Virus record (IMG/VR): IMGVR_UViG_3300010331_000007 | Span: 1-38,331 of that record | DNA length: 38,331 nt | Strand: one strand, 5' to 3' | From: a virus | Part shown: positions 11,789-38,331 of the stretch, piece by piece | Numbering within the stretch: the first letter of the stretch is position 1 | Layout: each line of letters opens with the position of its first letter | The notes under the pieces: model-generated | Seen by the model: only the letters and a program-made list of their open reading frames with translations | Database searches by the model: none | Told to the model about the DNA's origin: nothing | Position numbers and translations under genes: made by a program

Positions 11789-11816
11789 AAAAAAAGCCCC
11801 GTCAAGGGGCTTTTTT
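11789..11816. terminator. Bidirectional terminator between the accessory pair and the integrase
   Basis: A GCCCC/GGGGC stem (11796-11800 and 11806-11810) is flanked by an A-run (11789-11795) and a T-run (11811-11816), so it works on both strands. The integrase stop codon lies inside the hairpin, which serves the two convergent units. Confidence 0.85.
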
Positions 11817-13070
11817 ACGTCTGTCCTCATCTGTTTTTGCGGACAATCCAGCCCAAATCCTTTCAAGTTCTGCTGGCGACTCATCATCCATCCATTTTGC
11901 ATAGACCTCCACCAACATCGTGAAGTCCTTGTGGCCCATCTGCTTGGCGATGAATGCTAGGTTGCCTCGCGCCGTTAGGCACCAGCAAGCGTAGGTGTGC
12001 CTAGTCTGGTAGGGCCGGCGCGAGCGAATGCCCGAACGCTTTTGAATGGCTGCCCACTTTGTGTTCCATGACGTGGGAACAAACCAGTGGTTGATGATTT
12101 TCTTTCTGGCTTGCGTTGTCGGGGACAGTAGAGGGGTAACTGTTTCGACGCGGCTTTCGTGGCGGTTCATGTATACCTCAATCGCGCGCGGTGCGTGGTC
12201 GGCCACCAACCCCATCAGAATTTTGCAGGCCTCGACAGCTGGTGGCATCAGAAGTACCGCCCGAGGCTTTCCAGTCTTCGGGACTTTGAATGTGCCATCC
12301 GCTGTGATCGCCCGGATGATATTGATCTGTCCAGCGACCAGGTCGATGTCTTCTACAGCTAGCGCGCACATCTCACCCGGGCGAAGGCCTGTGTACACGG
12401 CGAGGGTGATCGCTGCTGAGTCCTGCGGGTGGAGGCATCCTTTGGTGAGCAGCTGTTCGAACTCGGTCTTTGTCAGCGGATCCGGTTCACGTCCGATCAT
12501 CGCGAATCGTATGCAAGCGGTGGACAGGCCTTTGCGGCAGTAGCCGTTGTTCTCGCACCAGGCCAGGAAGCCGGCGAACGTTGCTAGATAATGGTTCGCG
12601 GTCGAAGGCGCTCTGGTGGCGATCAATTGAGTTCTGAGCAGTTGGATATCTTCGGGCAAGAGGATGCCTGCCAATCGGTCTGGCCCCAATAGTTCCGTGC
12701 AGATATCCAGTGCGTAACCGTATTTCTCCTCGGTCATCGGCGTGATGTCGACAGCTTTCAGCGGTTTGTACCGGGCCAGCAGTGCGGCTAAGCGTTCATC
12801 CTTTACGGTGCTGTAGTTGGTCGCGTTTTTCGAGTTGGGAAAGTGACGGTTGTAATCGAAATGTCCTGTTTTGATCTCATGAATGATTGCCGCCCTGAGT
12901 AGGGCGGCATGTTTGATGTTGGCTTTTGTTACCGGGAGGCCAAGGGATTCGCGGCAGCGGACTCGCCGCCACATGAACACGACGCGAATGTTACCGCCGT
13001 GTAACTCAATCCCTTTATGCTTGACCAGTTCGGCTTCTAGGCTGCTACTTGTGGCGCGCTCTCGGCCCAT
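11802..13070 (-). CDS. int: Tyrosine recombinase integrase
   Basis: A site-specific recombinase of 422 residues when started at 13070, where GGAG lies 8 bases upstream. A longer frame reaches 13142, but it would overlap most of the excisionase start region. The N-terminal part (GIELHGGNIRVVFMWRRVRC) is the DUF3596-type arm-binding domain. A SAM-like core-binding domain follows, then the catalytic domain: R230 in TGLRPGE, K265 in VPKTGK, R357 in YQTRHTY, H380 in QMGHKD, and nucleophile Y390 in VEVYAKW. The usual first His of the HxxR box is Tyr here. It is the last gene of the leftward operon and ends in a bidirectional terminator, pointing at the putative attP. Confidence 0.95.
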   Translation of the reverse strand: MGRERATSSSLEAELVKHKGIELHGGNIRVVFMWRRVRCRESLGLPVTKANIKHAALLRAAIIHEIKTGHFDYNRHFPNSKNATNYSTVKDERLAALLARYKPLKAVDITPMTEEKYGYALDICTELLGPDRLAGILLPEDIQLLRTQLIATRAPSTANHYLATFAGFLAWCENNGYCRKGLSTACIRFAMIGREPDPLTKTEFEQLLTKGCLHPQDSAAITLAVYTGLRPGEMCALAVEDIDLVAGQINIIRAITADGTFKVPKTGKPRAVLLMPPAVEACKILMGLVADHAPRAIEVYMNRHESRVETVTPLLSPTTQARKKIINHWFVPTSWNTKWAAIQKRSGIRSRRPYQTRHTYACWCLTARGNLAFIAKQMGHKDFTMLVEVYAKWMDDESPAELERIWAGLSAKTDEDRRKKAP

Positions 13071-13234
13071 CGGTCGTACTCCGTCATATTTATTGCGATG
13101 CGTCCGTCTGGAGCTTTTCGCCATACCCGGCCTTGAGGCCAAGTCCCGTCTTTAACTTTGTGGCGAATGGCGTCTTCGCTATACCCGGTAAGTTCGGCTG
13201 CCCGTTTGATCATTACCCAGCGTGGTAGGCTCAT
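13037..13234 (-). CDS. xis: Excisionase-like DNA-binding protein
   Basis: A 65-residue protein. The motif WVMIKRAAELTGYSEDAIR is a winged-helix/MerR-like recognition region. GRVWRKAPDGRIAINMTEYDRW is the wing and tail typical of phage excisionases. It overlaps the methyltransferase stop (ATGA) and extends 34 bases past the preferred integrase start, so xis and int are coupled. Its role would be to direct the integrase to excision. Confidence 0.8.
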   Translation of the reverse strand: MSLPRWVMIKRAAELTGYSEDAIRHKVKDGTWPQGRVWRKAPDGRIAINMTEYDRWAESAPQVAA

Positions 13235-18091: not shown

Positions 18092-18334
18092 TCACGCCGC
18101 TTTTGAACGTGCTTGTGTGTCCAGGTATTCGGCGAGGTCGTGCAGATACACGACGGCTTGCCCCTTGCTGGATCCGCCTAGGCGCGTGATCTTCAAGTTG
18201 ATACTGCCTGCGCTGACTTTGCGCAGCAGGTACCGGTCGCTTGCAATGTGCGAGAAGTACCGCTCGCGAACAGCGCTGAGTGTTGGGCACGGTGTGGCGA
18301 ACTCTCCGCGTAATTGATCCAAGGTGCCACTCAC
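18092..18334 (-). CDS. PrtN-like pyocin activator protein
   Basis: An 80-residue transcription activator of the pyocin activator (PrtN) family. LLRKVSAGSINLKITRLGGS followed by VVYLHDLAEYLDTQ is the conserved DNA-binding core of that family (residues about 36-73). It starts at a GTG overlapping the previous stop (GTGA). In P. aeruginosa, PrtN binds P-boxes and turns on pyocin genes after PrtR is cleaved in the SOS response. Here the gene is in the PL operon under the CI-like repressor, so it would be made only on induction. A P-box-like array at 25195-25238, ahead of the late genes, is the obvious target. Alternatively it could act on host pyocin loci. Confidence 0.85.
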   Translation of the reverse strand: MSGTLDQLRGEFATPCPTLSAVRERYFSHIASDRYLLRKVSAGSINLKITRLGGSSKGQAVVYLHDLAEYLDTQARSKAA

Positions 18335-19792: not shown

Positions 19793-19804
19793 TTTACGGA
19801 ACAG

Positions 19805-19847
19805 ACAATACAAATACGTATTGGATTAGTCAATACGTATGCGTATC
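19805..19847 (-). promoter_or_regulatory. PL promoter with two repressor operators
   Basis: On the minus strand, -35 TTGACT (19828-19833) and -10 TATTGT (19805-19810) are 17 bp apart. Two 16-bp imperfect palindromes of the form AATACG-N4-CGTATT overlap them at 19807-19822 and 19832-19847. They match the perfect operator at 20633-20648, so the CI-like repressor or Cro should shut off the leftward operon here. Confidence 0.75.
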
Positions 19848-19864
19848 GTTTTTTTGATATGCAA

Positions 19865-19903: not shown

Positions 19904-20596
19904 TTAGAAAATTTCTAGCTTCGAAATCACGACTCCACAGATGATCCCATCCGGTGGTATTTCAATGATCGGCTCGGGCCACGAGGGATTTAGTGGCCTT
20001 AGAAATTTACGGGTTCCTTCCATGACGAGCTGCTTGAATGTTGCTTCATCGCTATCCATCAGCTTGGCGATGACTAGGGAGCCGTTTTCAGCATCGCGCT
20101 CGGGGTCAACATAGATGATGTCTCCTTCGCGAAATGAGCGGCGCTCGTGCGGATTGAACATTGATAGCCCGCGCACCCTTAGAGCGTATGTCTCTTTACT
20201 GTGGGAAACTGCGCAAGGAAGCCATATATCAACATCATCAATATTGTAGACGTCGCTAATCTCGCACCATGATCCTGCTTGAACCCACGAGATCAGAGGA
20301 ACGCCTCCTTTAATAGTTGGCCCTGGGCCGATATTTGATTCTTCCTTAAAAAGCCGTCCCGTTTGCGGTGATATTGGCTCCGAATTACTGCCGCCATTCC
20401 AGAGCCAATTACTGTTCACCTGCAGGGCTTTTGCAATTCTTTCGACGTTTGCGTGCCTGGGGCTGAGCGATTCGCCAGTTACGATTCGGTGGATTGTCGG
20501 TTGAGATACACCTGAGCGTCGACCTAGCTCGCCTTCTGAGAGTTTTAGCTCTTCCATGCGTTTGGCAATACGTTCTCCGATCATTTTGCGGCCCAT
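19904..20596 (-). CDS. CI-like phage repressor with S24 self-cleavage domain
   Basis: A 230-residue repressor. Residues 6-45 form a helix-turn-helix (ERIAKRMEELKLSEGELGRR, then GVSQPTIHRIVTG). The C-terminal S24/LexA-like domain has cleavage site A107-G108 (SWVQAGSW), nucleophile S145 (VRGLSMFNP) and base K178 (SLVIAKL). The intervals resemble those of lambda CI and LexA, so RecA-stimulated self-cleavage is expected. The start may be 20596 or the ATG at 20584; neither has a clear Shine-Dalgarno sequence, and a very short leader is possible. Divergent from cro, it should maintain lysogeny by binding the AATACG-type operators at PL and PR. Confidence 0.93.
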   Translation of the reverse strand: MGRKMIGERIAKRMEELKLSEGELGRRSGVSQPTIHRIVTGESLSPRHANVERIAKALQVNSNWLWNGGSNSEPISPQTGRLFKEESNIGPGPTIKGGVPLISWVQAGSWCEISDVYNIDDVDIWLPCAVSHSKETYALRVRGLSMFNPHERRSFREGDIIYVDPERDAENGSLVIAKLMDSDEATFKQLVMEGTRKFLRPLNPSWPEPIIEIPPDGIICGVVISKLEIF

Positions 20597-20615: not shown

Positions 20616-20658
20616 ATTGTATTGCCTTCATCAATACGCTTGCGTATTATCCTGTCAA
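20616..20658. promoter_or_regulatory. Divergent PR/PRM promoter region with perfect 16-bp operator
   Basis: Rightward, -35 TTGCCT (20622-20627) and -10 TATTAT (20645-20650) are 17 bp apart. The perfect palindrome AATACGCTTGCGTATT (20633-20648) fills the spacer and touches the -10, so bound repressor blocks PR. Leftward, a TACAAT -10 (20616-20621) or a TTGACA -35 (20653-20658) could serve the repressor gene. A weaker half-site ATACG lies near 20607-20612. Confidence 0.75.
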
Positions 20659-20682
20659 TGCGAAGGCGCATCGGTGAATGCA

Positions 20683-21707: not shown

Positions 21708-24376
21708 GTGAGCGTCCTGCAGTAATTTCGACATGGGCGCGCCGCTACATCGAAACCTTTAACCTTGCACTGGTGCCGATTGAGCCCGGTGAAAAGGCAC
21801 CCAAGGGTATGGGCTGGAATAAACCAGGTGGATACATCACCGATGTTACCCAGGCCGTAGATTTTTGGAAAAAGAACCCATCGCACAACCTTGGCGTTGT
21901 GCTTGGTCCGAGTCGTGTCTGTTCGCTGGACGTTGATGATGTCCAGTGGACCCGCCACGTTCTTTATGAGCTGCTCGGGTTAGACCTGGATGCAATGGCG
22001 TTGGCCTATCCGACCGTGGTGGGCAATCCTCTGCGGTTTCGTATCCTGTTCCAACTGCCCGATGGCATCGATCTGACTCGCCACTCGCTGGCTTGGCCGA
22101 ACGAGAAGGATCCTGACGGGTCGATACTCAAGAGCATCATGGCGCGGGTGAAAGCGGCCAAGGATGCGGGGGATTTAGCACAAGCGGCGATAGAGAGCGG
22201 TGAGGCAGAGAACTACAAGCGCTTTACTGTTTTTGAATTGCGGGCTGGGTTGGTGCAGGACGTTTTGCCCCCATCAATTCACCCGGGTACCGGCAAGCCA
22301 TACACCTGGCGCACGGCGCCCGACCCTGCTGGGCTTCCCACGCTAACCACTGACCTGCTGTCCATTTGGCAGAATTGGGACATCTTTAAGCGGGATGCAG
22401 AAGCCGCATGCCCATGGGCGCCAAAAGCCACGAAGCCAGTGGCGAAAGCTAAACCGAGTCCTGTACCAGCTTCTGGTAACCGTCCTTCGGTCATTGATGA
22501 ATTCAACCGCGGCCATGATGTGGAGGAGCTGTTGCGAGCGCACGGTTACATCAAGCGCGGCAGCAAATGGCTTTATTCGCAGAGCAGCACCGGGCTGCCG
22601 GGCATTACCATCACTGACGATAAGGTGTATTCGCACCACGGTGCGGATCCGCTCGCTAACGGCCACCAGAATGATGCGTTCGAGGTTTTCTGTTTGTTGG
22701 AGCATGGTGGTGATCAGTCGCGGGCGGTCAAGGAAGCGGCGCGAATGCTGGGCATGCAGTCGACTAGGCCTAGCGCAAGCGATCTTCCCCCACCCCCAAC
22801 TGTTGAGTCCGGCGAGCAGGACCCCGTCAGCGCGGCGGCTCCTGCGTCTCACGGGGGCGCGGGGGAGGAACTGACCAGCGAGCAGGTGTTACGACGGTTT
22901 GCGCTGGTAGAGGGCACTACTCACGTTTGGGATATCGACAAATCGCGGGTGATGAAAAAGTCAGCGTTCGAAGCGCTCATCGGCAAGCCCTTGGCTAAGT
23001 TGTGGGTGGACAATACCGATAAGAAATTGATTGCCGACGACAAAGTTCGGGAGATCGAGCAGGCCAGACGCATGGCGGGTAAGAAGGGTGGGGCGTTCGG
23101 CATGCCACCAACTGAGCGTTATGTGTACATCGACGGTACCAAGGATGTTTGGGATCGGGAGAAAAAGCGACGGATCGCCGAAGGTGCCGTAAAGATGGCC
23201 TTGGGTGACACGTACCCGCTTTGGTTAAACAGCAGCGAGCGACGAGTCGTTGATGTTGAGCACATTGTCTTTGACCCGACGATGACCAAGGATCCCAGCG
23301 TCTACATCAATACATTCGATGGCTTGCCTATGGAACCGGTCAATGATGACGAGGCATGCGCTAACCTGCGCTGGTTGATTTCGTTTCTCTGTAACCACGA
23401 CGAACCTGCGTCGCTCTGGCTGACTCGCTGGCTCGCTTACCCATTGCAGCACCTGGGTGCCAAGATGGACACCGCTGTCCTTATGCACTCAACGATGGAG
23501 GGGTCGGGCAAAAGCTTGCTGTTCGCTGATACGTTCGGTGCGCTCTACGGTCAGTACGCCGCTACGGTTGGCCAGACGCAGCTGGAAAGTAACTTCAACG
23601 CCTGGCAAAGCCGCAAGTTGTGGGCCGTCTTCGAGGAAGTGGTTAGCCGTGACCAGCGTTACAACCAGGTGGGCAAGATCAAGCACCTGGTCACCGGCAA
23701 GACGGTGCGGATGGAATCGAAGTTCATCAACGGCTGGGAAGAATCCAACCATATGAACGCGGTGTTCCTCAGTAACGAGATTTTGCCGTGGCCCATCAGC
23801 GATAGCGATCGGCGGATGTTGGTCATGTGGCCCATGGAGACGTTGCCGATAGCGAGACAGAAAGCAATTGGTCATGAGCTCGATAATGGTGGTGTCGCGG
23901 CTCTTTATGGCTGGCTGCTGCGTGTCGGTCTGGATGATTTCAACGAGCGAACCCGTCCGCCAAGTACGGCATCACGTGAGCGGCTGGTTGCGCTCAGTCG
24001 GGCAGGGTGGCAGACTTTCCTGCATCTCTGGCAATACGGTGAGCTGGGTCGCGGTCTTTGGGGGGCTTGCCTTTCGACTGATCTTTACGCCCTGTTCCTT
24101 GAGTGGTGTCAGAGAAACAAAGAGCATGTGATGAGCCACACGAAGTTCTCTCTGTTCATCAGTTCTGAGGTTGAAAAGACCAGATCTATCCCTTGGACGG
24201 AGCGCAATGATCGACGCTTCGGGGCTTTTTTCTTTCCTAATGACCCTGATGCTTCCCTGCCCCCATCGTTGAAAGCGCCGGACTTGGGCTCGGCGGTCAT
24301 AAATTGGCGGGGCAAGGCGCGCCTCGCAGGCTGGAATGTGGATGGCTGGGACCACATGAAGGCGGCAGCAGCATGA
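21704..24376 (+). CDS. Primase-helicase (Prim-Pol N-terminal domain, SF3-like helicase C-terminal domain)
   Basis: An 890-residue replication protein. The ATG at 21704 follows GGGAG and overlaps the previous stop. Residues 10-130 resemble the bifunctional primase-polymerase domain: LVPIEPGEKAPKG, NLGVVLGPS, and the metal-binding SLDVDD (D76, D78). A Pro/Ala-rich linker follows (about 370-400). The C-terminal helicase (DUF5906/D5-like) has Walker A STMEGSGKSLLF near residue 600, Walker B KLWAVFEEV, and AVFLSNEILPWPI-SDSDRRM as sensor and Arg finger region. A single protein with primase and helicase activity suggests origin recognition and initiation as in satellite phage P4. It is followed at once by the iteron region. 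Confidence 0.9.
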   Translation: MSERPAVISTWARRYIETFNLALVPIEPGEKAPKGMGWNKPGGYITDVTQAVDFWKKNPSHNLGVVLGPSRVCSLDVDDVQWTRHVLYELLGLDLDAMALAYPTVVGNPLRFRILFQLPDGIDLTRHSLAWPNEKDPDGSILKSIMARVKAAKDAGDLAQAAIESGEAENYKRFTVFELRAGLVQDVLPPSIHPGTGKPYTWRTAPDPAGLPTLTTDLLSIWQNWDIFKRDAEAACPWAPKATKPVAKAKPSPVPASGNRPSVIDEFNRGHDVEELLRAHGYIKRGSKWLYSQSSTGLPGITITDDKVYSHHGADPLANGHQNDAFEVFCLLEHGGDQSRAVKEAARMLGMQSTRPSASDLPPPPTVESGEQDPVSAAAPASHGGAGEELTSEQVLRRFALVEGTTHVWDIDKSRVMKKSAFEALIGKPLAKLWVDNTDKKLIADDKVREIEQARRMAGKKGGAFGMPPTERYVYIDGTKDVWDREKKRRIAEGAVKMALGDTYPLWLNSSERRVVDVEHIVFDPTMTKDPSVYINTFDGLPMEPVNDDEACANLRWLISFLCNHDEPASLWLTRWLAYPLQHLGAKMDTAVLMHSTMEGSGKSLLFADTFGALYGQYAATVGQTQLESNFNAWQSRKLWAVFEEVVSRDQRYNQVGKIKHLVTGKTVRMESKFINGWEESNHMNAVFLSNEILPWPISDSDRRMLVMWPMETLPIARQKAIGHELDNGGVAALYGWLLRVGLDDFNERTRPPSTASRERLVALSRAGWQTFLHLWQYGELGRGLWGACLSTDLYALFLEWCQRNKEHVMSHTKFSLFISSEVEKTRSIPWTERNDRRFGAFFFPNDPDASLPPSLKAPDLGSAVINWRGKARLAGWNVDGWDHMKAAAA

Positions 24377-24708
24377 CAACCTATCCATCTGTGTTAGGTG
24401 TGCTGGGTATGTGTTGGGTTGATTCTGCCTACTCGACACAGCAAGAACTCCCTATTTCCGTGGCTCCTAGACCCCTGTGTTGGGTGTGTTGGGTTTATTG
24501 TCGCGTGCGCGCGTGCGTGACGTTATTTACTCAACTCACGGCAGAAACATTTTTTTCTTATGCGAGGACCAATAAACCCAACCAACCCAACACACTCAAC
24601 ACACATAGTTATAAGTCATTGAATTTAAAGGCTGTTAGCTGTGTTGGGTTTGTGTTGGGTATGGGGTTTTCTGTGTTGGGTTGGTTTTGTCGGGGGAATG
24701 GGCAGTGA
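24373..24708 (+). CDS. Small ORF embedded in the iteron region, uncertain gene
   Basis: A 111-residue frame starting at ATGA with the primase stop and ending at GTGA with the antiterminator start. This double coupling favours a real gene. The protein is odd, however: repeats of VLGVLGMCWV and PLCWVCWVYC simply translate the DNA iterons. Composition is rich in Cys, Trp, Val and Leu, with no recognisable domain. It may be a coding remnant of the origin, or only open by chance. Confidence 0.35.
   Translation: MTTYPSVLGVLGMCWVDSAYSTQQELPISVAPRPLCWVCWVYCRVRACVTLFTQLTAETFFSYARTNKPNQPNTLNTHSYKSLNLKAVSCVGFVLGMGFSVLGWFCRGNGQ
24391..24681. repeat. GTGTTGGGT iteron cluster (putative replication origin)
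   Basis: The 9-mer GTGTTGGGT occurs exactly at 24411, 24477, 24486, 24641, 24652 and 24673 on the plus strand, and at 24585 on the minus strand. One-mismatch copies are at 24391, 24400 and 24594 (minus). Three sets are head-to-tail with no gap (24391/24400, 24477/24486, 24585/24594). An AT-rich stretch (24603-24630) lies among them. Iterons beside a primase-helicase gene suggest an origin bound by that protein, as in P4 (inference). Confidence 0.65.
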
Positions 24709-25175
24709 TCAGGGAAATAGAAGAGTTGATGGTTCACTGGGGTGTGCAGTCGAGGGAGTTCGGCCTGGGTGGCGGACTCGGTAGTCAAATGGGCTCGATC
24801 ATTGAATGGGGCGGTGCACCTCCTCGTGGTACGCCGGGGTCGCGGATTCTGGATGGTGCGGGTATTGGGATGGACGTGATCGCCACCGAGATCGATGCAA
24901 CCGTCGCTGAGCTTGAACGCAAGGGTTATAGCGAGCTGGCTGTTCTGGCCGTCCACCGGTATTGCCACCTGGCGTCGGTGCGCGAGCAGATGCGAGTGGT
25001 GGGGATCGCCGAGGGGGCAGATCGTACGTACCGCAATTGGGTGCAGCGACTGCATCAGCAAGTGATGCTGATCCTGGTGATTCGCAGCGGCACCACGCGC
25101 GGTCGTGCGGGGCAGCGGCAAGAGGGTGACCATTGCAAGGTAACGAACCACAGCGGCAGGCGAGCGCGTGTGTAA
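24705..25175 (+). CDS. Phage antitermination protein Q family
   Basis: A 156-residue protein started at GTG 24705, with GGGGGA upstream and overlapping the preceding frame. IREIEELMVHWG, GLGGGLG, and ATEIDATVAELERKGYSELAVLAVHRY followed by SVREQMRVVGIAEGADRTYRNWVQRLHQQV fit the PF06530-type antitermination Q family, including a C-terminal sigma-like helix-turn-helix. It is the last gene of the PR operon and stands just before the late control region, as in lambda. It should act on RNA polymerase leaving the late promoter. Confidence 0.75.
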   Translation: MIREIEELMVHWGVQSREFGLGGGLGSQMGSIIEWGGAPPRGTPGSRILDGAGIGMDVIATEIDATVAELERKGYSELAVLAVHRYCHLASVREQMRVVGIAEGADRTYRNWVQRLHQQVMLILVIRSGTTRGRAGQRQEGDHCKVTNHSGRRARV

Positions 25176-25194
25176 CCGTTCGTCGGGGTGCTTT

Positions 25195-25238
25195 GTCGTA
25201 TTGTGGTCGTATTGATGTTGTATTGCTGTCGCATTATG
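25195..25238 (+). promoter_or_regulatory. P-box-like tandem 11-bp array upstream of late genes
   Basis: Four 11-bp units (25195-25205, 25206-25216, 25217-25227, 25228-25238) have the consensus GTCGTATTGNN. Read from 25200 they are ATTG-TG-GT-CGT, ATTG-AT-GT-TGT and ATTG-CT-GT-CGC, then a degenerate ATTATGTC. This is the repeated ATTGnn(n)GTnn(n) pattern that defines the PrtN-binding P-box of pyocin genes (recalled from the literature). A possible promoter lies downstream (TACAAC near 25281). The rest of 25176-25430 holds a terminator and GC-rich inverted repeats but no gene. Confidence 0.7.
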
Positions 25239-25371
25239 TCCAACCGTTAAACACCGCTTTTCGGTCTTTCCGAACGCAGGTACAACGTAGGCACGATCTG
25301 CGATTTGCGTCTGAGTCGCCAACTGAGCACGTGCTGTGCACGCAACACCCGGCTTCCCCAGGCCGGTCACC

Positions 25372-25395
25372 AATCCCGCTTCGGCGGGATTTTTT
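25372..25395 (+). terminator. Strong terminator between late control region and holin (tR'-like)
   Basis: A perfect 8-bp stem AATCCCGC/GCGGGATT (25372-25379 and 25384-25391) with loop TTCG and a T-run to 25395. Its place between the putative late promoter and the holin is that of lambda tR', which Q-modified polymerase reads through. Confidence 0.85.
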
Positions 25396-25430
25396 ATTCT
25401 CCCGGTTTATCTTTGTTCTTGAGGCACACC

Positions 25431-25778
25431 ATGACTACTGAGCAACAAGCGCTGTTCGATATGCCGATTTGGTTAGTGATCGTCCTGGCCCTGGTCGGTG
25501 GTGTATCTGGTGAGATGTGGCGAGCAGACAAGGATGGTGCGCGAGGGTGGTCTCTGGTGCGGCGCCTGGCGTTGCGATCCGGTGCCTGCGTTGTCTGCGG
25601 CCTATCGACGATGATGCTGTTATACGCGGCGGGTGTATCGATATGGACTGCTGGCGGCTTCGGTTGCCTGACTGCGATGGCCGGCGCAGATGTAGCGATA
25701 GGGTTGTACGAACGTTGGGCCGCCAAGCGACTCAGTGTGTGCGAAGTTCCACCGGGTGCTGGTAACAGTGGCCAGTGA
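25431..25778 (+). CDS. Putative holin (holin superfamily III / LydA type)
   Basis: A 115-residue membrane protein with GAGG before its ATG at 25431. Hydrophobic segments lie at about 12-27 (IWLVIVLALVGGVSG), 48-68 (ACVVCGLSTMMLLYAAGV) and 72-88, and a short charged tail follows. The layout and the GGVSGEMWRADKDG loop resemble LydA-type holins. It would permeabilise the inner membrane to release the GH108 endolysin, although the two genes are about 21 kb apart along the late operon. It is the first gene after the late terminator. Confidence 0.65.
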   Translation: MTTEQQALFDMPIWLVIVLALVGGVSGEMWRADKDGARGWSLVRRLALRSGACVVCGLSTMMLLYAAGVSIWTAGGFGCLTAMAGADVAIGLYERWAAKRLSVCEVPPGAGNSGQ

Positions 25779-26130
25779 CGACCGGGGCAGTAGCGCCGAG
25801 CGTGGTTACGGTTACCGTTGGCAGAAATCGCGGGATGCATTCCTGCGAGACCATCCGTTCTGCTGCATGTGCTCGACTGATCTGCGGCCAGTAGCCTCAA
25901 TCATCGTCGACCACAAAGAGCCGCCCCGGCTCAAAGATGCCAAGGTCAGCGGCGATCCGTTACGTATCAAGACTGCGTGGAAATTGTTCTGGAGCCTGGA
26001 CAATTGGCAGCCGCTCTGCAAGTTCTGCCATGACTCGACCAAGCAAAGGCTTGAGAAAAGTGGACGAATGGTCGGCTGCACACCGGCTGGATTGCCCCTA
26101 GATCCGAATCACCACTGGAATCGGCGCTGA
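25768..26130 (+). CDS. HNH homing-type endonuclease of the packaging module
   Basis: A 120-residue protein started at GTG 25768, overlapping the holin stop. RGYGYRWQKSRDAFLRDHPF is the usual opening of phage HNH proteins beside terminases. Cys-x2-Cys pairs (FCCMC and LCKFC) form a zinc site, and IIVDHKEPPR with NWQPLCKFCHDSTKQR is the HNH active site. HNH proteins of this type are needed with TerL for cos cleavage in HK97-like phages, which supports cos packaging here. Confidence 0.88.
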   Translation: MASDDRGSSAERGYGYRWQKSRDAFLRDHPFCCMCSTDLRPVASIIVDHKEPPRLKDAKVSGDPLRIKTAWKLFWSLDNWQPLCKFCHDSTKQRLEKSGRMVGCTPAGLPLDPNHHWNRR

Positions 26131-26294: not shown

Positions 26295-26828
26295 ATGGCT
26301 GGAAATGGAAGTTCTGGACGCCCGGCCAAGCCTGCGGTGCTCCATGTGCTGCAGGGGAATCGTAGCAGAAAAAACCTTGATCAGCTGATCAACGAAGTGA
26401 AGCAACCTGCGGTACCAGTGTGCGCACCGCCCATGCCTTCGGTGCTGACCGGCGATGCCGTGGCGGAGTGGGAGCGGTTGGTTCCGGATCTGATAACGCT
26501 GGGTCTGATTTCTACGCTGGATCAGATGGCGCTCGCGACCTACTGCCAGGCGTACGCCGATTGGCTGAAGTATCAGCGCTTGATTGCCACACGCAACGCT
26601 GCCTCTGCTGACGAATTGGGGGGTGACATTCAGACCTTCAAGACCGGTGCACAGCAACTGCATGTACTCCGGCAGCTGGCAAACGATGCCGAGAAGCGCG
26701 CTAACGCCGCTGGAGCGTCGTTTGGATTCTCCCCCATGGCGCGCCGCAACCTGAAGGCGGCCATCCAGCCGCAAGGCGAGCTATTCCCCAATGACCAACG
26801 AGACGCAGCAAGCCGATACTTTAGCTGA
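26295..26828 (+). CDS. terS: Terminase small subunit, P27 family
   Basis: A 177-residue protein with a near-perfect GGAGGTG ribosome binding site. RPAKPAVLHVLQGNRSRKNL at the N-terminus is the P27-type DNA-binding start. Then come EWERLVPDLITLGLISTLDQ and YCQAYADWLKYQRL, and FGFSPMARRNLKAAIQPQ at the end. It should recognise the packaging site and recruit TerL. It overlaps TerL by 38 bases. Confidence 0.9.
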   Translation: MAGNGSSGRPAKPAVLHVLQGNRSRKNLDQLINEVKQPAVPVCAPPMPSVLTGDAVAEWERLVPDLITLGLISTLDQMALATYCQAYADWLKYQRLIATRNAASADELGGDIQTFKTGAQQLHVLRQLANDAEKRANAAGASFGFSPMARRNLKAAIQPQGELFPNDQRDAASRYFS

Positions 26829-28617
26829 TGACCGCGTCACCGCGTTCGCGCATGCGGTGCTCAACGGCGAGATAGTCGCCGGTCCCGACATTCGCAATGC
26901 CTGCAGCCGCCATCTGCGCGATCTTGAACATGGTCCGTCCCGTGGTTTGATCTTTGATCTGGAGTTGGTGAACCGCGCCATTGGTTTCTTCGAAGACGTG
27001 CTTTGCCTCAATGGGGGCGACTATGAGGGGGCGCCGTTCTTCCTCGCGCCTTGGCAGGCGTTTGTTGTTGGCAGTCTGTTTGGGTGGATGACCGAGGATG
27101 GCTACCGGCGTTTCCGGTTGGCCTACATCGAGACGGGCAAGGGCTCCGGGAAGAGTCCCCTGGTGGCCGGTATCGGCCTGTACGGCTTGGTAGCCGATGG
27201 TGAGCAGCGCGCCGAAATCTACGCTGCCGCGACGAAACGCGATCAGGCCATGATCCTGTTCCGTGATGCCGTGTCGATGGTATCCATGTCGCCGTTCATG
27301 GCGAGCCGCGTGGTGCAGTCGGGCCGAGACGAAAAGGTCTGGAACCTGTACTACCCGAACACCAGTTCGTTCTTCCGGCCCATCAGCTCGGATGAAGGGC
27401 AGTCTGGCCCACGTCCGCATATCGGGCTGCTCGATGAGGTCCACGAGCACAAGACTGCAACGGTCGTGAACATGATGCGCGCCGGTACCAAGGGCCGTCG
27501 TAAAGCCCTGGTGGTGATGATCACCAATAGCGGGTCGGACAAGAAGACAGTTTGCGGTCAGTACCACGACCTCGGGGTTCGCATCTGTGCTGGCCAGGAA
27601 GATGACGACAGCTTCTTCGCTTTCATCTGCTCGCTGGATGAGGGGGACGATCCGTTCAAGGATGAGAGCTGCTGGCCGAAGGTCAACCCATCGCTCGACT
27701 TCATTGCCGAAGGGCAGAGCGATGGCATTCCGGGCCGCAAGTATCTGCGCGAGCAAGTTCAGTCGGCACGGGGCTTGCCCGCTCAGGAGTCGGTGGTCCG
27801 GCGTCTCAACTTCTGCGAATGGACCCAGGCCGAGTCGCCATGGATTTCTTGGGACGTCTGGAGTCAGGCCGCCGAGCGCGTACCGATGCGGCTTCTGCGT
27901 GATCGCCCTTGCGTCGCGGGCCTGGACTTGGCCAGTACGACGGACCTCACAGCTTTCGTGTTGCTGTTTTATCCGACTGTTGCCGATCCGCACTGGCGGC
28001 TGCTTTCGTATTTCTGGATTCCGGACCATGACCTGGCCGAGCGCGAAAAACGCGACAAGGTGCCGTATGCATTGTGGGTCAAGCAAAAGGAACTGGAAAC
28101 CACACCCGGACGCGCGATCAGCAAGCTGCATGTGCTACGGCGACTGCAAACCATCTGCGCGTATTTCGATGTTCGCAAGATTGCGTATGACCGCTGGCGG
28201 ATTGAGGACTTGGTGCAGCTGATGAGCGAGCACGATATCGAGCTGCCCGAAATGGCGCCCTTCGGCCAGGGCTACAAGGACATGGGGCCTGCGGTCGATG
28301 AGTTCGAAAGGCGTTTGCTGGGGCTTCCGCCCAAGGCTGATGACGATGAGGTTATCGATCTGTCGCCCGATGACTATGAGGTGATCAGCGAAATATTCGA
28401 AGTCGAGACGTTGCGCCACGACGATAACCCGGTGATGACCTGGTGTGCCGGTAATGTGGTGATCGTGAGCGACCCCGCCGGTAACCGTAAGGCAGACAAG
28501 GCCAAAGCGACAGGCCGTATCGACGGCATTGTCGCAGCACTGATGGCTACCGGGCTCAGCGGCACGGCCATCGAAGGCAGCGGTAAATCCATTTATGACG
28601 AAGGGGCAGGCATATGA
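26791..28617 (+). CDS. terL: Terminase large subunit (Terminase_1 family)
   Basis: A 608-residue packaging motor. Walker A is ETGKGSGKS (K121), Walker B HIGLLDEVHEH (D215, E216), and motif III is MITNSGSD. The nuclease domain begins with GLDLASTTDLTA (catalytic Asp near residue 377). It belongs to the HK97-type TerL group, consistent with cos packaging with 3' overhangs and an HNH helper. A 436-codon antisense frame in this gene is a shadow. Confidence 0.95.
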   Translation: MTNETQQADTLADDRVTAFAHAVLNGEIVAGPDIRNACSRHLRDLEHGPSRGLIFDLELVNRAIGFFEDVLCLNGGDYEGAPFFLAPWQAFVVGSLFGWMTEDGYRRFRLAYIETGKGSGKSPLVAGIGLYGLVADGEQRAEIYAAATKRDQAMILFRDAVSMVSMSPFMASRVVQSGRDEKVWNLYYPNTSSFFRPISSDEGQSGPRPHIGLLDEVHEHKTATVVNMMRAGTKGRRKALVVMITNSGSDKKTVCGQYHDLGVRICAGQEDDDSFFAFICSLDEGDDPFKDESCWPKVNPSLDFIAEGQSDGIPGRKYLREQVQSARGLPAQESVVRRLNFCEWTQAESPWISWDVWSQAAERVPMRLLRDRPCVAGLDLASTTDLTAFVLLFYPTVADPHWRLLSYFWIPDHDLAEREKRDKVPYALWVKQKELETTPGRAISKLHVLRRLQTICAYFDVRKIAYDRWRIEDLVQLMSEHDIELPEMAPFGQGYKDMGPAVDEFERRLLGLPPKADDDEVIDLSPDDYEVISEIFEVETLRHDDNPVMTWCAGNVVIVSDPAGNRKADKAKATGRIDGIVAALMATGLSGTAIEGSGKSIYDEGAGI

Positions 28618-36433: not shown

Positions 36434-38331
36434 ATGGCTGATGCCGACGTACAAGGCATGTTGATTCGCATTGAAGCGACAACAGCGCAGCTTCGTCAGG
36501 AAATTGCGCGCGGTGATGCAGCGGTAGCGCAGTCGGCCGGCAGCATTGATGCAAGCCTTGGCAAGATCGACAGCGGTTTTGACCGCACCGGCTCTAACGC
36601 AGGTGTCCTTCAGCGGGCCGTCAGTGCGGCTTTCACGGGGATAGGCTTGGCTTCAGCTGCCGCCGTGGCGGGACTGGTCGCAATTACCGTAAAAACCACC
36701 AACTACGCCCAGGAAGTGAAGAACCTTTCTTCGCTGTCGAAAGCCTCGGTCACGGAGTTCCAGCGCTTTGCCGTGGGCGCCAAGTCGGTCGGCATCGAGC
36801 AGGACAAGCTGGGTGACATTTTCAAGGACACCACTGACCGGGTTGGGGAATTTCTCCAGCGTGGCGGCGGTGAAATGGCGGACTTCTTCAAGGAGATTGC
36901 CCCGAAGGTCGGCGTCACTGCGCAGATGTTTGCCAAGCTTTCAGGTCCAGAAGCCTTGCAGTTGTATTACACCTCGCTTGAGAAAGCAGGTTTAAGCCAA
37001 ACGCAGATGACCACCTACATGGAAGCGATGGCCGATGAGGCCACCGGTTTAATCCCGCTGCTGAAAAACAACGGTGCCGGCTTCAAGGAGTTCGGTGACC
37101 AGGCTGAGAGGTCTGGCCAGATCCTCAAGTCGTTTGAGATTGACCAACTGGTCGCGGTCAATCGCTCGATACAAGCGCTTGAGGGGTCGTTTGAGGGTGC
37201 GTCACGGCAGTTGGTGTTGGGGATGCTCCCAGGCATTCAGAGCGTCACCGACCGACTGACGAGCATGTCCAGCAACGGCGCCATGGAAGCGCTGGGCACT
37301 GGGGTGGGCTTCCTGGCGGATCACCTCAATATTTTGGCCGCTGTGATGGGCGGCAAGGTGGCGGCCAGCTTTGTCGGTTACATTCAGAATCTAGGCGCCT
37401 CGGCCCTGGCGTCGAATCAAGCCGGCGCGGCCAACCTGGCCCAGGCGACCAGCGCGGTCCAGGTAGCCACTGCTAACCAGGTCGCGGCCCAGTCGGCGGT
37501 GGTTCGGGCTGAAAAAGAAGCCATTGCGGCACGCGGCACCGGCGTCCAAACGCAGATGTCGATCCAACTGGCCGAGGCGCGTCTGGCTGAGCGCGCCGCG
37601 ACCGCGCAGTTGGTGGTGGCGCAGACAGGTCTCAAGACGGCCAGTGGCTACTTGCTCGGTATTTTCGGTGGGCCTGCCGGCATTGCAGCGCTCGCTGTAG
37701 GGGCGGCTATTGCTTTCCTGACCCTGCGTGACAACACCAGTACGCTGGAAAAGAAACTGGGTGATCTGGCGGATCCGCTGGACAAGCTGACCGAGCGCTT
37801 TGACAAGCTCAACCGTGCTACGCAGGCGGTGACCCTTCGCGCCCTTCAAGAGAACATCGCCGAGACCCAGGCAAAAGTGGGTCAGATGTCAGGCGCCATG
37901 GCTGACAAGTTTGAAAATGACCTGCGCAACATGGGCGCGGCCGGTGCTGATGGATTGATGGCCGGTCTGGTCAACCTTCCCGCTGATACCCAGGCGGCGC
38001 TGGACCTAGTGCGCAAGACATCGAAGGATCAGGCCAGCGGTATCGCGGTGGATTGGAAAGCCGTTGCTGACCAGTTGCGTACGATGCCAGGCGTCACCGA
38101 AGAAATGGCCCAGGCACTGGAGTCGAGCCAGTCGCCGGTGACTGATCTCAGTGCTGTGCTTCAGAAACAGCAACAAACCCTGGCGGCGCTCACCGCCGAA
38201 ACCGATAAAAATACCGCCTCGCAAAACCAGAACAGTGCCGCCAAGAGCACGGCCTCGGCCGCCGGTCAAAAGTACATCGACGAGCAGACCAAGGCGCTAC
38301 AGGCCGCCCAGGACAAAACGTTCACTGAGCA
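36434..38331 (+). CDS. Tail length tape measure protein, N-terminal part (residues 1-592 and overlap)
   Basis: Start at 36434 with GGAG 7-10 bases upstream. The frame is open to the window end and joins in phase with base 2. The N-terminus is helical (VQGMLIRIEATTAQLRQEIA), followed by AAVSGLVAIT-type hydrophobic residues near 60-80 and a globular segment (KSVGIEQDKLGDIFKDTTDR, EFLQRGGGEMADFFKEIAPK, KLSGPEALQLYYTSLEKAG). A second hydrophobic region lies near residues 405-430 (LGIFGGPAGIAALAVGAAIA). These features are those of lambda-type tape measures. Confidence 0.93.
   Translation, partial: MADADVQGMLIRIEATTAQLRQEIARGDAAVAQSAGSIDASLGKIDSGFDRTGSNAGVLQRAVSAAFTGIGLASAAAVAGLVAITVKTTNYAQEVKNLSSLSKASVTEFQRFAVGAKSVGIEQDKLGDIFKDTTDRVGEFLQRGGGEMADFFKEIAPKVGVTAQMFAKLSGPEALQLYYTSLEKAGLSQTQMTTYMEAMADEATGLIPLLKNNGAGFKEFGDQAERSGQILKSFEIDQLVAVNRSIQALEGSFEGASRQLVLGMLPGIQSVTDRLTSMSSNGAMEALGTGVGFLADHLNILAAVMGGKVAASFVGYIQNLGASALASNQAGAANLAQATSAVQVATANQVAAQSAVVRAEKEAIAARGTGVQTQMSIQLAEARLAERAATAQLVVAQTGLKTASGYLLGIFGGPAGIAALAVGAAIAFLTLRDNTSTLEKKLGDLADPLDKLTERFDKLNRATQAVTLRALQENIAETQAKVGQMSGAMADKFENDLRNMGAAGADGLMAGLVNLPADTQAALDLVRKTSKDQASGIAVDWKAVADQLRTMPGVTEEMAQALESSQSPVTDLSAVLQKQQQTLAALTAETDKNTASQNQNSAAKSTASAAGQKYIDEQTKALQAAQDKTFTE
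38209..38331. repeat. Terminal direct repeat (copy 2)
   Basis: Exact copy of bases 1-123. The frame agrees in both copies (codon starts at 2 and at 38210), so the window is a circular genome with a 123-bp overlap. Confidence 0.95.

Follow-up and report, generated by a model that had tools for sequence, protein, structure and literature searches.

A Pseudomonas phage PrtN-like protein as the probable activator of its own late genes at a P-box-like operator array

The closest described system is that of the R/F and S pyocins of Pseudomonas aeruginosa, in which the PF11112 protein PrtN acts at the P-box under an upstream S24-type repressor logic (Matsui 1993, via PMC4905994 and PMC8609362). The P-box is the PrtN binding site and consists of four repeats of 10-11 nt with the form ATTGnn(n)GTnn(n) (PMC4905994; PMC8609362). 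In the pyocin clusters, four direct repeats of about 11 bp (ATTGnnGTnnn) precede the lysis and late genes, and a phrog_4300-like gene lies alongside. A second described PF11112 member, RdfN of the dusA islands, is a proven recombination directionality factor (RDF) (PMC8409611). Phage-borne genes annotated as "pyocin activator PrtN" are widespread and unexplained, occurring in 60 of 94 dusA islands, twice in Pf-5 prophage 03 and once in phage Lodos; such phage and island genes were noted earlier without a function (PMC4482086; PMC2647930), and a pyocin-activating role was suggested for the Lodos gene (PMC11846083). The tailocins of plant-associated Pseudomonas have been reviewed as having no prtN orthologues and an unclear regulation (PMC10598620). 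Our literature search, outside which most subscription journals lay, found no paper describing phage-borne operator arrays.

The DNA analyzed here (the window) is an IMG/VR virus record of 38,331 nucleotides from a virus of Pseudomonas. It carries an exact direct terminal repeat (DTR) of 123 bp (1-123 and 38209-38331) and is therefore, as assembled, the complete genome of a temperate phage; the ends of the record cut within late genes. Its gene order runs int, xis, ..., DUF2303, phrog_204, prtN, phrog_8889, phrog_5689, kinase, ..., cI, and across the operator region continues from cI with cro, cII, ..., primase, phrog_4300, holin, HNH and terminase. This order is largely repeated in the Pseudomonas phages Turba, Lodos, PG1 and pAN. 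The features of the left part are as follows.

11802..13142 (-), tyrosine integrase (PF00589, Arm-DNA-bind_2)
13037..13234 (-), separate canonical excisionase (phrog_539 / phrog_9668)
18092..18334 (-), PrtN-like probable activator, type 1, with the class-A wing RLGGSSKGQ, 80 aa
18331..18705 (-), phrog_8889 gene, overlapping the prtN start (GTGA)
19804..19848 (no strand), two CI-type operators, CAATACAAATACGTATTG and TCAATACGTATGCGTATCG (19804-19823 and 19829-19848), at the start of the left operon
19904..20596 (-), CI/PrtR-like repressor with an S24 peptidase (LexA-type) domain
20630..20673 (no strand), two matching operators on the cro side (20630-20649 and 20654-20673)

The prtN open reading frame starts with GTG, overlaps the upstream phrog_8889 gene by 4 bp and is flanked in the left operon by this gene and the phrog_204 gene. 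Homologues with 52-84% identity are present in about 95 relatives, and prtN is therefore no chance reading frame. A profile search matched its product to Pfam PF11112 (PyocinActivator) with 85.6 bits against a curated cut-off of 24.2 (E 2.5e-24), which places the protein inside the pyocin activator family, as an earlier note on this DNA had claimed. That note had also placed the gene in a left early operon, expected to be under AATACG-type operators, in agreement with the AATACG...GTATT operators found ahead of the operon at 19804-19823 and 19829-19848. The operators at both sites take the form AATAC(N6)GTATT, and prtN lies, by sequence, behind the operators of a repressor of the S24 (RecA-cleaved) type, as is characteristic of PrtN/P-box regulators. 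In P. cichorii, the sites presumed to serve the tailocin repressor as operators (L081:9820-9880) read AATAC-N5-GTATT, similar to those of the window but with different spacing.

Three PF11112 subtypes could be distinguished: type 1 of the window, an RdfN-like type 2, and the classical P. aeruginosa PrtN located beside trpE/PrtR. The window protein belongs to the subtype TLDQLR.EFATPCPTLSAVRERYFSHI; judged by sequence features and length, it does not fit the P. aeruginosa type (FGDVLIPL..YFRNLN..SRKA), with which it shares only distant similarity. Since the classical protein forms a separate subtype, the window protein is best described as PrtN-like in action but outside that subtype. An AlphaFold model showed a winged helix with the wing loop at residues 53-58 (pLDDT 84). 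A sequence search of the PDB returned no relatives and Foldseek gave no match to the model at E < 0.001, while a fold comparison yielded weak matches to Pukovnik Xis, RdfS, P2 Cox and BldC (VIA Z 5.0-5.5), the nearest being Xis proteins. The product is putatively a small member of the PrtN family with a winged-helix fold like that of Xis/MerR proteins.

The earlier note had also foreseen a late promoter of the phage's own as a target of PrtN, and a P-box-like array was indeed found ahead of the late operon, 25 bp past the phrog_4300 gene and before the holin/HNH/terminase genes.

24705..25175 (+), phrog_4300 protein, with a homologue in tailocin clusters too
25192..25240 (+), P-box-like operator array: TTTGTCGT + ATTGTGGTCGT + ATTGATGTTGT + ATTGCTGTCGC + degenerate fourth ATTATGTC
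25256..25305 (+), conserved promoter/leader element CTTTTCGGTCTTTCCG..GGTACAACGT..CACGATCTG, common to tailocins
25372..25391 (+), intrinsic terminator-like hairpin between the late promoter and the holin gene
25431..25778 (+), holin (PF16085), the first gene past the array
25735..26130 (+), HNH endonuclease
26295..26828 (+), terminase small subunit
26791..28617 (+), terminase large subunit

The array comprises four 11-bp repeats fitting ATTGnn(n)GTnn(n), of which three consecutive units match exactly (25200-25229) and the fourth is degenerate, so that about four tandem units stand at the presumed target promoter. Shuffled sequences gave a mean of 0.04 matches to a three-unit P-box even when up to 3 mismatches were allowed. 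In a consensus-free scan, the array was the most strongly 11-bp-periodic stretch of the genome (25/33), compared with 18 for the runner-up and a maximum of 22 in 300 local shuffles. When four units were chained under a relaxed score that left the spacing free, the window (21) did not stand out from shuffles (maximum up to 22); the array is significant by the exact match at fixed spacing and by the scan for period 11. When viral contigs were scanned with the bare three-unit P-box, 38 contigs matched and only 4 of them encoded PF11112; the bare consensus is therefore not diagnostic at the scale of a collection. A scan of 24300-26000 for sigma-70 consensus promoters gave no match, and the element behind the array at 25256-25305 is presumed to be a weak promoter that would need the activator.

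We consider it very probable that PrtN is the phage's own late-gene activator acting at the 25192-25240 array. With its own PrtN and a matching array before the late genes, the phage most likely uses the protein as a late-gene switch and not chiefly as a trigger of host bacteriocins. Compared with the P. aeruginosa pyocins, PrtN would here control the head, packaging and tail genes of a complete phage. The geometry differs as well: about 190 bp, including a terminator, separate the array from the first gene, whereas the P-boxes of S pyocins lie 60-100 bp before the Shine-Dalgarno sequence.

An array of about four copies with a period of about 11 bp was present at the same spot in all 60 phage loci that had a homologue of the window PrtN, a contig reaching the spot and the flanking anchor sequences. 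The unit varied by clade, being ATTGTGGTCGT in class A (that of the window), AAAGTTGCGTC in class B and AAGTGTGGTCA in class C, with others in D/E. More distant phages again carried units of their own at this place, namely CCCCCGTCAG in Turba and Lodos, CCAGCGTAGAG in PG1, a AACCGTGTTCA-like unit in pAN and class-B units in KT1 and SC_9. Tailocins had an array as well, followed by the clearly homologous downstream element GGGGTAAAAAGGTCCCACGATATGCGATTTGCG.

These differences followed the presumed DNA-contacting parts of PrtN. Among 55 non-redundant phages, which are related and thus not independent, array distance was correlated with PrtN distance in the wing (residues 50-60) once the rest of PrtN and phrog_4300 had been removed (partial Mantel rho 0.56, permutation p 5e-4); the array classes were defined post hoc with the data in view, whereas this test is class-free. 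The rest of PrtN gave a partial correlation of 0.06. The best single PrtN columns (31, 57, 53, 58, 39, 38 and 32) lie in the wing or in or near the recognition helix of the AlphaFold model. Among natural swaps, the PrtN of L078, 80% identical to the window protein, combines an R..QG wing with a class-C array, whereas that of L056, only 66% identical, combines a KG wing with a class-A array. The phage clades thus appear to have changed the operator unit jointly with the DNA-contact residues of PrtN.

The protein recognizing the array could instead be the phrog_4300 product, leaving PrtN with another job; its gene lies next to the array and is common to tailocins, and the partial correlation between phrog_4300 and the array was 0.34. 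Natural swaps speak against it. L020 and L041 share phrog_4300 proteins that are 98% identical and yet differ in PrtN and array class, and L031/L041 and L032/L055 likewise combine near-identical phrog_4300 proteins with differing array classes that match their PrtN. Conversely, L028 and the window are both class A although their phrog_4300 proteins differ by 64%. The P-box of P. aeruginosa, moreover, is acted on by PrtN (PMC8609362). Recognition by the phrog_4300 protein was rejected on these swaps and is extremely unlikely.

The pairing of array and PrtN also held in bacterial genomes. The class-A consensus occurred in 8 of 22 PrtN-bearing genomes, exactly those with a class-A PrtN, and in 0 of the 14 others. 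In a sample of 398 Pseudomonas genomes, which partly overlaps with these 22, it was found in 7, each with 0-1 mismatch and each with a class-A PrtN. With up to 3 mismatches allowed, a reversed control pattern likewise matched 7 of the 398, and therefore only sites with 0-1 mismatch are regarded as meaningful. In one genome (G537), the class-A site and PrtN were on different contigs.

The nearest cellular homologues of the window protein (76-78% identical) belong to clusters of Mu-like tailocins that also encode an S24 repressor and a phrog_4300-like protein. The PrtN proteins of such tailocins in P. viridiflava, P. maioricensis, P. caspiana and P. cichorii are of the window subtype (66-78% identical), and the clusters share with the window a class A or C box, the promoter element and neighboring phrog_13491- and phrog_4300-like genes; they differ in being headless tail clusters fixed in the host and in having another repressor. 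Judged from sequence, one module of PrtN, S24 repressor, phrog_4300, array and late promoter appears to serve both the phage and tailocins from the P. viridiflava/P. cichorii group. In Mu-like clusters of plant-associated Pseudomonas (L073-L077, L081-L083 and L236-L238), a type-1 PrtN adjoins the S24 repressor, contrary to the review that reports no prtN orthologue for such strains (PMC10598620), and trpE lies beside the cluster in two genomes, G456 and G537 (L236 and L237). A further cluster, L205, reads gph, prtN, prtR, traR-like, phrog_4300-like and tail genes, and from this order we take it to be a pyocin cluster of the P. aeruginosa type; it showed no clear P-box, and its late part looks rearranged.

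This kinship bears on the proposal of the earlier note that PrtN might activate host tailocins or bacteriocins, an idea also raised for phage Lodos (PMC11846083). Tailocin P-boxes of class A occur in the P. viridiflava/P. caspiana group, and given the 76-78% identity of the nearest homologues, cross-activation is plausible by sequence in hosts with a class-A tailocin, of the P. viridiflava type or the P. caspiana type for example. The P-box search that the note had called for was run in the lysogen genomes of relatives and lent no support: in eight class-A lysogens (G006, G007, G012, G197, G323, G349, G456 and G537), the only class-A box was the phage's own. Tailocin and prophage both had the window PrtN subtype in four cases, and in each of these their classes differ, the tailocin being class A and the prophage class C in P. 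caspiana and the reverse in G456, G537 and record G030. The Lodos/Turba unit is in addition unlike the pyocin P-box. That PrtN has been selected mainly to switch on host tailocins or pyocins, tying phage induction to bacteriocin release, is thus a quite improbable account.

The excisionase label of PHROG 1300, which the window protein also matches (E 5e-27), the proven RDF activity of its family member RdfN and the Xis proteins as nearest fold matches would all fit a PrtN that serves as the phage's RDF. RdfN, however, shares only the PF11112 fold family; it is of the subtype MNTAFxLMAQYNG..SQKSAKG and sits beside the dusA integrase, whereas prtN is 5 kb from int. Close homologues of the window protein score about 150 bits on the type-1 model as against 18-35 bits on the type-2 model. 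A separate Xis (13037-13234) abuts the window integrase, and type-1 integrases are accompanied by an Xis of 83-92% identity. PrtN is retained whatever the integrase, class A occurring with int type 1 in 8 loci and with others in 7, and class B in 8 and 10. Relatives integrated at dusA hold a second, different PF11112 gene beside int, and no P-box-like array was found near int in the window. Because integrase type varies freely, a separate Xis is present and an RdfN-like paralogue stands beside int in dusA relatives, the RDF role was rejected for the window copy as very unlikely. In the relatives that have it, the RdfN-like paralogue is encoded separately, where the operon meets int, and adjoins dusA in several of them; it coexists with PrtN in the dusA-type prophages L039, L066, L084, L089, L092 and L095. 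All three PF11112 subtypes are present in G349.

With PrtN as the late-gene activator, SOS induction would inactivate the CI repressor, as its S24-type domain suggests, and loss of CI would allow transcription of the left operon including prtN. PrtN would then bind the four 11-bp direct repeats in head-to-tail fashion, with one unit to each helical turn and all on the same DNA face, and activate the weak promoter just downstream, from which the late transcript would read through the leader into the holin, HNH, terminase and late genes. The Ogr protein of P2 and the C protein of Mu are likewise early- or middle-expressed activators of a weak late promoter, belonging to an unrelated protein family with an unrelated operator form.

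The degenerate fourth unit, the terminator between the array and the holin gene and the distance of about 190 bp to the holin start count against an activator. The region 25256-25391 forms a conserved structured leader ending in the terminator before holin, beside the phrog_4300 gene, a layout resembling lambda Q / PR'. As the terminator precedes holin and the phrog_4300 gene is adjacent, this layout suggests an extra antitermination step at the late promoter, with the phrog_4300 protein as a possible antiterminator or late co-regulator; given the intervening terminator and the distance, such a step may be needed for late-gene readthrough. PrtN itself, once bound to the array, might instead play an architectural or antitermination part, or repress the late promoter, which would suit its putative Xis/BldC-like fold and the position of the terminator. 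However, P. aeruginosa PrtN is an activator, and the array lies upstream of the promoter-like element, in an activator's place; we regard such a non-classical role as unlikely.

It is conceivable, though somewhat doubtful, that PrtN and the 4 x 11-bp arrays form mutually specific (orthogonal) pairs with a code readable in the wing loop and recognition helix, and that co-resident tailocins and prophages stay on separate codes so that induction of one leaves the late genes of the other off; the code differences between tailocins and prophages comprise four cases from few lineages and are no proof of selection for insulation. The co-varying PrtN/operator pairs provide natural material from which DNA recognition could be decoded and prophage/tailocin insulation within one cell could be studied. 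On the present data, phage-borne PF11112 genes would fall into two groups, RDFs and late activators whose operator is visible, and type-1 PrtN is a testable candidate activator for the tailocins of plant-associated Pseudomonas.

Between the primase gene and phrog_4300 (24390-24690), the window also contains numerous 10-11-mers resembling TGTGTTGGGT, some direct and some inverted, as do Turba and SC_9, and this region looks like an iteron-type replication origin.
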